Assembly: GCA_017962845.1 (NCBI GenBank)
Contig: JAGCUN010000045.1
Location: forward strand, 1 to 64,000
Origin: Bacteroidales bacterium
GTDB lineage: Bacteria > Bacteroidota > Bacteroidia > Bacteroidales > WCHB1-69
Length of the DNA stretch: 64,000 nucleotides
Direction: 5' to 3'
Below, in pieces: positions 13,944-15,854 of this stretch. The notes beneath the pieces were generated by a model that saw nothing but the letters and a program-made list of their open reading frames with translations, made no database searches and was not told the DNA's origin. Positions within the stretch are counted from its first letter, which is position 1; each line of letters begins with the position of its first letter. A program made the position numbers and the translations under genes.

Positions 13944-15398
13944 TTAGAAATACAGGTCGCGTTCGCCCTGCTTGATACGTTCTATGCGGTTCAGCAGCTC
14001 GTCGCGGAACTGTTCATCCACGTTGCAGAGGTTGTTCTCGATGACCTTCCAGCCTTTGGCGGCCACTTCGGGCGTGGCGTAGTCCACCAGGTACTCGCTG
14101 AGCGTGAGGATGGCATTGGGCGTGCAGTAACGCTTGATGAAGCCTGGCACGCTGAACTCCATGAAGTGCTCGCCGGTACGGCCCAAGCGATAACAAGCCG
14201 TGCAGAAACTCGGGATGTAGTTGCCGTCCAACAGCTCTTCGATGATGTCTCCGAGGTTTCGGTCGTCGCCGATCTTGAACTGCTCGCGATGCAGGTTCTG
14301 GTTCTCCTGTTTGTCGCTGTTCTTCTCGGTCTCCTCATGGTGGTACTTGTAGTCGCCAATCTGGAGGTTGGTGCCGCCGTCGATCTGCGAAATACCGTAC
14401 TGGATGGCCTTGGCACGGAAGTCGGCATTTTCGCGGGCGGTGAGGATCATGCCGGTATAAGGCACTGCCAGACGGAAGATGGCGATGATCTTCTCGAAAG
14501 TCTCATCATCCACAAAGTACTTTTTGTCGATGTCCAGGCCGGAAGCGTCCTTGATACGCGGGAACGAGATGGTGTGCGGACCCACGTTGAAGCAGGCCTC
14601 CAAGTGGTTGGTGTGGCGAATCATGGCCATCACCTCGAAACGCCAGTCGTACAGACCGAACAGGATACCGAGACCGTTGTCGTCGATGCCTGCCTGCTGG
14701 GCGCGGTCCATGGCGGTGAGGCGCCACTCGTAGTTGCCCTTGATGGTGTTGGCGGGATGGTACCATGAGTAAGCCTCCGGGTGGTAGGTCTCCTGGACAA
14801 TCTGGTAGGTGCCGATGCCGGCCTCTTTCACGGTGCGGAAGCCCTCCACATCAAGCGGGGCTGCGTTGATGTTCACGCGGCGGATGGAACCATTGCCTTT
14901 GTGTACCGAGTAGGCGAGGCGGGTGGTGTGAGCGATGAACTCCGGCGAGTATTTCGGAGATTCGCCATATACCAAGATAAGACGTTTCTGACCGTCATCT
15001 TCCAGTGCCTCAATGTTATGCACAAACTCCTCATCGGTGAGGGTGGTGCGCACCTGCTCGTGGTTGGAGGAACGGAAACCGCAGTATTTGCAGTTGTTCA
15101 CGCAGTAGTTGCCCACGTACAGGGGGGCGAACAGCACGATACGGTTGCCATAGATGCGGCGTTTCAGCTCGCGGGCACCCTCCTTGATCTCCTCCACCAA
15201 CGCGGGGTCAGTGGTGTTGATGAGCACGGCGGTCTCCTCCAACGTCAGTCGCTCCTTGTTCAGCGACTTCTGGATGAGGGCGCGCACCCGTTCGGGCGTG
15301 CTTTTCGTGTTGTTGATGTAATCCCAAATTTCATCAGGATCGATAAACGGTTTGCCGATTTCGTCGGGAATCCGACATTTTTCTGGGTTGAATTTCAT
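13944..15398 (-). CDS. hydG: [FeFe]-hydrogenase maturase HydG (tyrosine lyase)
   Basis: The 484-residue radical SAM protein has the CX3CX2C cluster motif at C99, C103 and C106 (NYCVNNCKYCGF). Near residues 394-420 it has the second, HydG-specific cluster motif CTAC...RYC. This separates HydG from the related ThiH, which lacks that arrangement. HydG cleaves tyrosine to supply CO and cyanide for the hydrogenase H-cluster. Length is standard. The regulator-like TM1266 gene lies upstream on the same strand, and the 201-nt gap between them is filled with repeats and a palindrome. HydE, HydF and the hydrogenase itself are not in the window. Confidence 0.95.
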   Translation of the reverse strand: MKFNPEKCRIPDEIGKPFIDPDEIWDYINNTKSTPERVRALIQKSLNKERLTLEETAVLINTTDPALVEEIKEGARELKRRIYGNRIVLFAPLYVGNYCVNNCKYCGFRSSNHEQVRTTLTDEEFVHNIEALEDDGQKRLILVYGESPKYSPEFIAHTTRLAYSVHKGNGSIRRVNINAAPLDVEGFRTVKEAGIGTYQIVQETYHPEAYSWYHPANTIKGNYEWRLTAMDRAQQAGIDDNGLGILFGLYDWRFEVMAMIRHTNHLEACFNVGPHTISFPRIKDASGLDIDKKYFVDDETFEKIIAIFRLAVPYTGMILTARENADFRAKAIQYGISQIDGGTNLQIGDYKYHHEETEKNSDKQENQNLHREQFKIGDDRNLGDIIEELLDGNYIPSFCTACYRLGRTGEHFMEFSVPGFIKRYCTPNAILTLSEYLVDYATPEVAAKGWKVIENNLCNVDEQFRDELLNRIERIKQGERDLYF

Positions 15399-15407
15399 GA
15401 TTGGTTG

Positions 15408-15444
15408 TTTATTTGTTTTGTTTATTCGTTTATTCGTTTATTTG
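15408..15444. repeat. Short 8-bp tandem repeat (TTTATTYG) in hydG leader
   Basis: Units at 15421-15428, 15429-15436 and 15437-15444 read TTTATTCG, TTTATTCG and TTTATTTG. A further TTTATTTG lies at 15408-15415, offset by 5 nt. The array is within 25-50 nt of the hydG start codon. Confidence 0.8.
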
Positions 15445-15473
15445 TAGGGATGTCATATTATGGCATCCCACAA
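15443..15473. repeat. Palindrome, copy 2 of the dispersed repeat
   Basis: The arms 15443-15456 and 15460-15473 repeat the 2911-2941 palindrome with one G-T wobble (15453/15463) and a one-base loss near the right end. Unlike copy 1, no T-run follows on the hydG strand, so it should fold in the hydG leader without terminating. Confidence 0.75.
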
Positions 15474-15488
15474 TCATCCTCACATAAT

Positions 15489-15600
15489 CCTTTCATCTTT
15501 TCATCTCTTCATCCTTTCATCTCTTCATCCTTTCATCCCTTCATCCTTTCATCCCTTCATCCCTTCATCCCTTCCTCCTTTCATCCCTTCCTCCTTTCAT
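15489..15600. repeat. Array of fourteen 8-bp repeats (CYYTTCAT; ATGAARRG on the hydG strand)
   Basis: Fourteen consecutive 8-bp units fill exactly 112 bp. Twelve end in TTCAT and two in TTCCT (569-576 and 585-592 of the 15-kb block). On the transcribed (minus) strand most units read ATGAAAGG or ATGAAGGG, so each ATG is directly preceded by a purine-rich Shine-Dalgarno-like stretch. The first ATG overlaps the regulator's stop codon (TGATG). Confidence 0.92.
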
Positions 15601-15854
15601 CACATCCTCCCTTGCTTCGCCACCATCGATTTCGCCTCCACGTCGGGCAGACGGCCCAATTTGCCGGTGAGGGCGCTGATCTGGTCAGTGGTGCCTTCGA
15701 TGATGAGGGAAATAAACTGGATGCCTTTGTCGCGCAGGGGGAGCCCCTGACGGGCCAAAATCATTTCGGAGAACTCCGAGAGAAGCTCGTTCACTTGGGG
15801 AACTATGTCGCGATTGCTGATAAGGATGCTGATGCTTCCGATTCTCTTTTCCAT
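15600..15854 (-). CDS. TM1266-family putative iron-only hydrogenase regulator
   Basis: The 84-residue protein is of the ACT/NikR-C-like fold family named after Thermotoga TM1266. It shows the typical opening EKRIGSISILISN, a central QGLPLRDKGIQFISLIIEGT, and a second strand-helix unit ending in GRM. The family lacks a DNA-binding domain and is found beside [FeFe]-hydrogenase maturation genes; its exact activity is not established. Its position directly upstream of hydG fits this. A consensus-like promoter lies at 15948-15976, so regulator and hydG probably share a transcript. Its stop codon abuts the 8-bp repeat array. Confidence 0.87.
   Translation of the reverse strand: MEKRIGSISILISNRDIVPQVNELLSEFSEMILARQGLPLRDKGIQFISLIIEGTTDQISALTGKLGRLPDVEAKSMVAKQGRM

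Follow-up and report, generated by a model that had tools for sequence, protein, structure and literature searches.

A stop-proximal octamer array between a hydrogenase regulator gene and hydG in a Bacteroidales bacterium is probably a local copy of a dispersed, species-specific tandem repeat

In a 64,000-nt stretch of DNA from a rumen-type Bacteroidales bacterium (hereafter the window), part of the spacer that separates a hydrogenase regulator gene from hydG consists of tandem 8-bp units whose start and stop codons overlap. We find that the array belongs to a family of octamers dispersed over the intergenic spacers of this genome. It is probably a local copy of species-specific short-tandem-repeat spacer DNA that expands, overruns gene ends and is tolerated there, and no control of hydG is expected from it. 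The draft genome is 95% complete and was compared with one genome per species. The features of the spacer and its flanking genes, in the order of transcription, are as follows.

15600..15854, minus strand: gene for a TM1266-like iron-only hydrogenase system regulator of 84 aa, stop TGA at 15602-15600 (PF21699, TIGR03959)
15600..15611, minus strand: repeat-like 3′ end of the regulator gene, codons GGG AGG ATG plus the stop TGA, matching the related octamer type GGGAGGAT/GTGATGAA (interpretation by comparison)
15489..15600, minus strand: octamer array, 14 units of AKGAARRG (ATGAAAGG, ATGAAGGG, ATGAAGAG, ATGAAAAG, AGGAAGGG; unit count, TRF and shuffles)
15442..15473, minus strand: hairpin TTGTGGGATGCCATAATATGACATCCCTACAA (−12.8 kcal/mol, z −4.8), whose core recurs in the spacer of the relative G003
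15405..15445, minus strand: second octamer array, of the AATAAACG/AATCAACA type, just 5′ of the hydG start (TRF and comparison)
13944..15398, minus strand: hydG, encoding the radical SAM maturase of [FeFe] hydrogenase, the gene downstream of the spacer (TIGR03955, 1.8e-144)

An earlier, sequence-only reading of this region had described fourteen octamers filling 112 bp from the regulator stop codon, and unit count and coordinates bear this out: the 14 units of 8 bp span 15600-15489 of the minus strand, and the first of them, ATGAAAGG, beginning at 15600, overlaps the stop TGA to form the junction TGATG. TRF scored the array at 149 for period 8 and 181 for period 16, and a two-unit pattern matched it 13 times against 0.61 expected from shuffles, which excludes a chance origin. 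Each ATG of the run had been thought to open a three-codon frame. Twelve of the 14 units start with ATG, and the other two, both AGGAAGGG, start with AGG; nine of the 12 ATGs open three-codon frames (six MKG and three MKR), whereas the first two open 11 codons and the last opens 12. The antisense strand of the array contains no stop codon, which accounts for a spurious 358-aa plus-strand ORF running across it. The hairpin and the AATAAACG-type array, which make up the stretch between the octamer array and hydG, had both been overlooked; a AATAAACG-type array is found at the equivalent position before hydG in G003, G004 and G011. The AATAAACG/AATCAACA type occurs in this genome, in most congeners and in a few other genera, and is usually adjacent to a start codon in the places that we read.

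The overlapping codons had been interpreted as a chain of coupled miniature cistrons, joined by ATGA overlaps, that would pass ribosomes from the regulator gene to hydG and so tune hydG. The overlaps are real, both at the TGATG junction and genome-wide, where 184 of 224 ATG units open a three-codon frame that closes at the next unit. The chain, however, stops some 90 nt short of hydG, and although each unit had been credited with a Shine-Dalgarno-like purine run, Bacteroidia ribosomes do not use Shine-Dalgarno pairing; AUGs near starts are, moreover, avoided in Bacteroidia (PMC9976891, PMC6728339). Arrays of the family also lie antisense and between convergent genes, and the orthologous spacers examined lack the array, so that coupling of this kind is extremely improbable. 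Phase variation by frame shift, another proposal, fared no better: no reading frame crosses the array into hydG, and a promoter role was not found.

When the regulator–hydG gap was compared across relatives, the array was present in none of the congeners checked. In G001, G003, G004 and G011, whose HydG is 98-99% identical, the hydG spacers measure 74-160 nt and carry other 7/8-bp repeats but not this array. The spacer of several other relatives is only 5-63 nt long and mostly repeat-free, and that of more distant ones contains the unrelated 7/8-mers GACGTGT, CTAAACC and GTCTCGAA. The absence of the array beside nearly identical HydG proteins, together with the presence of the family behind dozens of unrelated genes, argues against tuning of hydG. 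HydG and the regulator have discordant histories (L089-L091, L093, L095 and L068): HydG proteins 92-95% identical go with regulators only 47-52% identical, and in G007 the values are 91% for HydG and 99% for the regulator.

A 24-base pattern spanning three units matched the bacterium's own genome 106 times (0 for the reversed control), and a broader pattern matched it 176 times. At the matched places we counted 40 arrays with 281 units, the longest having 21 units. Among 12 congeners, the pattern matched 0-14 times per genome, with at least one match in 9 of the 12; among 47 genomes of other genera, the 24-mer pattern was not matched at all. The arrays are often accompanied, in the same phase, by the related octamer GAGKATRT, which gave 29 matches in this genome and 0 in 59 others. 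The restriction of GAGKATRT to this genome, combined with the octamer counts, indicates that the species has its own spacer dialect. At two rRNA operons, moreover, the 5S rRNA terminator is immediately followed by octamer arrays (L051:165-291 and L052:157-274), between which lies the GAGKATRT type.

The family unit is AKKAARRG, most commonly ATGAAAAG/ATGAARGG, and its composition is strict. C is absent from all 1656 bases of the 207 interior units. Position 8 is invariably G, and only two bases are seen at positions 6 and 7 (A or G), at position 2 (T or G) and at position 3 (G or T). Identical unit variants recur at many loci, suggesting that the loci have a common source or exchange sequence. 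This strictness also weighs against a reading as mere spacer DNA, because simple decay would yield more types of change than the fixed pairs at positions 2, 3, 6 and 7; constraint or a shared source may thus contribute. A literature search by motif returned no report of this octamer.

The repeats are confined to spacers. In an unbiased 464-kb sample, comprising two contig stretches and the window, spacers contained 15.6 lag-8 runs per 100 kb, whereas neither the 389 kb of coding sequence nor shuffled spacers contained any; the other peak was at lag 7. Both peaks, at lags 7 and 8, recur in rumen relatives and, at lower strength, in other members of the Bacteroidota. The context counts rest on custom automatic gene calls (Markov scores and long ORFs), which superseded two earlier gene callers that had missed AT-rich accessory genes, and, the 464-kb sample excepted, they come from regions picked for containing arrays. 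On this basis, co-directional spacers hold 16 sense and 4 antisense arrays (p 0.012), while 7 array spacers lie between convergent and 3 between divergent genes. Measured on the ATGAARRG strand, the median distance is 21 nt to the 5′ neighbour and 104 nt to the 3′ neighbour; the 5′ neighbour is the nearer one in 24 of 30 spacers (p 0.001), and in 20 of the 30 the array lies at most 50 nt after a same-strand stop codon. Found in many spacers rather than in genes, close to stops and on the coding strand, the arrays are dispersed intergenic short tandem repeats of the STRR/heptamer type. The general base composition of sequence after stop codons was rejected as an explanation of the C-free, purine-rich arrays, C there being about 0.18 and G about 0.14-0.17.

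Stop codons are a conspicuous property of the arrays. All three sense frames contain a stop in 39 of the 40 arrays, and the antisense strand is stop-free in 31 of the 40. Of 21 genes that immediately precede an array, 13 end in TGA, a far higher share than the 52 of 358 found among genes of the unbiased sample (p 8e-7), and at six loci (C10, C19, C22, C33, C48 and C49) the gene stop lies inside a repeat unit. A histogram of stop-trinucleotide offsets after 193 genes showed no clear peak at 7 or 8.

The regulator gene appears to be a further case, which the sequence-only reading had missed, its final residues (GRM) and stop codon looking repeat-derived. In near congeners the conserved portion of the protein ends in ...EAKSMVAK, and the tail after MVAK varies. 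In this genome it is QGRM (the repeat-like GGG AGG ATG TGA); G001 and G011 have LKN and MKN, formed by heptamers of the AATTGAA type, G003 and G004 have LKTEN, and a further relative (L107) has PLTPNC, encoded by heptamers of the AACTGCC type. These differing repeat-like tails suggest that various repeats overrun the end of the regulator gene in various species, and in the present genome the octamer repeat may have displaced an older regulator stop.

One explanation of these properties is that the arrays are selected all-frame stop cassettes, retained because they end read-through or frameshifted translation after the gene and prevent ribosomes from running into the 3′ untranslated RNA. It would account for the sense orientation, the stop proximity, the stops in all frames and the TGA excess, and it could draw on another genus (L095), in which different TGA-bearing octamers, GATGAAGC/GATGATAC and GATGAGAC, stand directly at two stop codons. 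Yet arrays follow only a minority of genes, four are antisense, the congeners' arrays mostly lie elsewhere, their hydG spacer lacking the array found here, and the replacement of the commoner TAA by TGA would be odd for a fail-safe. A cross-species sample of 7/8-bp arrays located just after stops gave a sense-strand stop excess of 12 versus 6, which is not significant in this small sample (p 0.24), and we accordingly make no claim of selection for all-frame stops. We regard the cassette explanation as unlikely. The same low standing applies to its extension to the Bacteroidales, by which lineage-specific 7- and 8-bp repeats would be portable, selected cassettes, with a length coprime to 3 and the TGA or TAA being adaptive and the arrays actively capturing the stops of many genes.

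Our preferred reading, tolerated spacer DNA, is consistent with the turnover of the arrays between species. When array loci of the congeners were compared by BLAST with the array regions of this genome, few shared places were found. At one orthologous spacer (C20), with 90% identical DNA, the arrays of this genome and of G001 differ by whole octamers, so that the copy-number change envisaged by the sequence-only reading is seen, between species. The 21-unit array, on C2, shows a higher-order repeat of eight units (64 bp). Differences by whole octamers and a 64-bp repeat are what slippage or unequal duplication would give, and a neutral slippage product fits best among the three options that had been offered for the hydG spacer (with tuning and phase variation). 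Slippage alone, however, is insufficient to place one motif in about 30 spacers.

A mobile or templated element is another explanation, in which the array would travel as part of a composite with a REP/MITE-like palindrome (GTAGAGACG...CGTCTCTAC) and a AATCAACA array. A block of octamer array, ATGAAATGTGTGGGT, palindrome and AATCAACA array is indeed found at four places (C2:3570, C28:110767, C40:26415 and C47:281; L039, L048, L058 and L167), and the genome encodes two Y1_Tnp genes. But the palindrome is missing from most arrays, neither shared ends nor target-site duplications were seen, and some copies, which lie before genes resembling one another, may be segmental duplicates, making an element of this type a doubtful source for the family, with only a slim chance of being correct. 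The C40 copy of the block runs into an apparent tRNA 3′ end. Scattered over spacers are REP-like palindromes, GTAGAGACGTTGCGCGCAACGTCTCTAC and related ones, that start with GTAG; they occur at window positions 15442-15473 and beside arrays in L039, L043, L048, L058 and L167, and the two Y1_Tnp genes might mobilise these palindromes.

A nucleic-acid structure acting at gene ends, whether a G-quadruplex, an RNA hairpin or a terminator, is suggested by the G-rich, C-free strand being the coding strand and by the G4-forming heptamers that occupy comparable positions in Xanthomonas and Nostoc (PMC4692102). None of the 40 arrays, however, matches the canonical G4 rule (G3+N1-7), the RNA of the hydG-spacer array folds at 0 kcal/mol, with no structure on either strand, and there was no Rfam match; a structural role is very unlikely. 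The Xanthomonas and Nostoc repeats, G-rich heptamers of GGGAATC and GGGGA(C/T)T type that are stop-proximal on the coding strand (PMC4692102), are nevertheless the closest known case, sharing with the octamer arrays their placement. The present repeats differ in having an 8-bp rather than a 7-bp unit, another motif, no canonical G4 potential, a Bacteroidales host and mostly different places in sister species. Assignment to the GGGNATC G4 heptamer class was rejected on unit length and on the lack of G4 matches.

Three further systems offer partial parallels. The TAACTGA direct repeats of Beggiatoaceae, Cyanobacteria and some Bacteroidetes (PMC4679880) are likewise intergenic and dispersed, with a stop-bearing forward unit and no known function, but they are heptamers that lie mostly just upstream of start codons and share one motif across phyla; the octamer, with its motif ATGAARRG and its location behind stops, was not assigned to this class. 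BrickBuilt, a minisatellite MITE of Porphyromonas gingivalis (PMC4596501), likewise consists of tandem repeats scattered over the genome of a member of the Bacteroidales, but it has a 23-bp unit and inverted-repeat ends, and no such ends were found for the octamer arrays. Phase-variable simple sequence repeats (contingency loci) similarly have units that are not a multiple of 3 and change in number, as the octamers do between species, whereas the array described here belongs to an untranslated spacer and is part of no reading frame or identified promoter.

Taken as tolerated spacer DNA, the arrays could have arisen as follows. They would grow and shrink by whole units through slippage or unequal duplication, as the unit-number differences and the 64-bp repeat suggest, and would settle mostly just behind the stop of a gene, on the coding strand. 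In several genes, apparently including the regulator gene, an array would overrun the gene end, whereupon the stop codon becomes part of a repeat unit. Since an 8-bp unit holding TGA presents a stop in every frame within 24 bp, an overrun would add no long tail to the protein; such all-frame stops may make sense-strand overrun tolerable and hence explain the strand bias. Given the cross-species result (p 0.24), this tolerance filter draws mainly on the single octamer family. The ATG would be a by-product of the unit A-TGA and, with no Shine-Dalgarno pairing in Bacteroidia and AUGs near starts being avoided, is most likely unused as a start. The array would then merely lengthen the untranslated spacer between the regulator gene and hydG, with no effect on hydG.

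What stands out as a start/stop arrangement at a single gene pair can be part of a genome-wide repeat dialect, which calls for caution before regulation is inferred from it. The family provides an octamer counterpart to the Xanthomonas and Nostoc heptamers, repeats located at stops on the coding strand, and shows in addition that repeats of this kind can supply a gene's own stop codon. Reasons for the recurrence of 7-8 bp units in unrelated lineages can be tested with the many rumen genomes.
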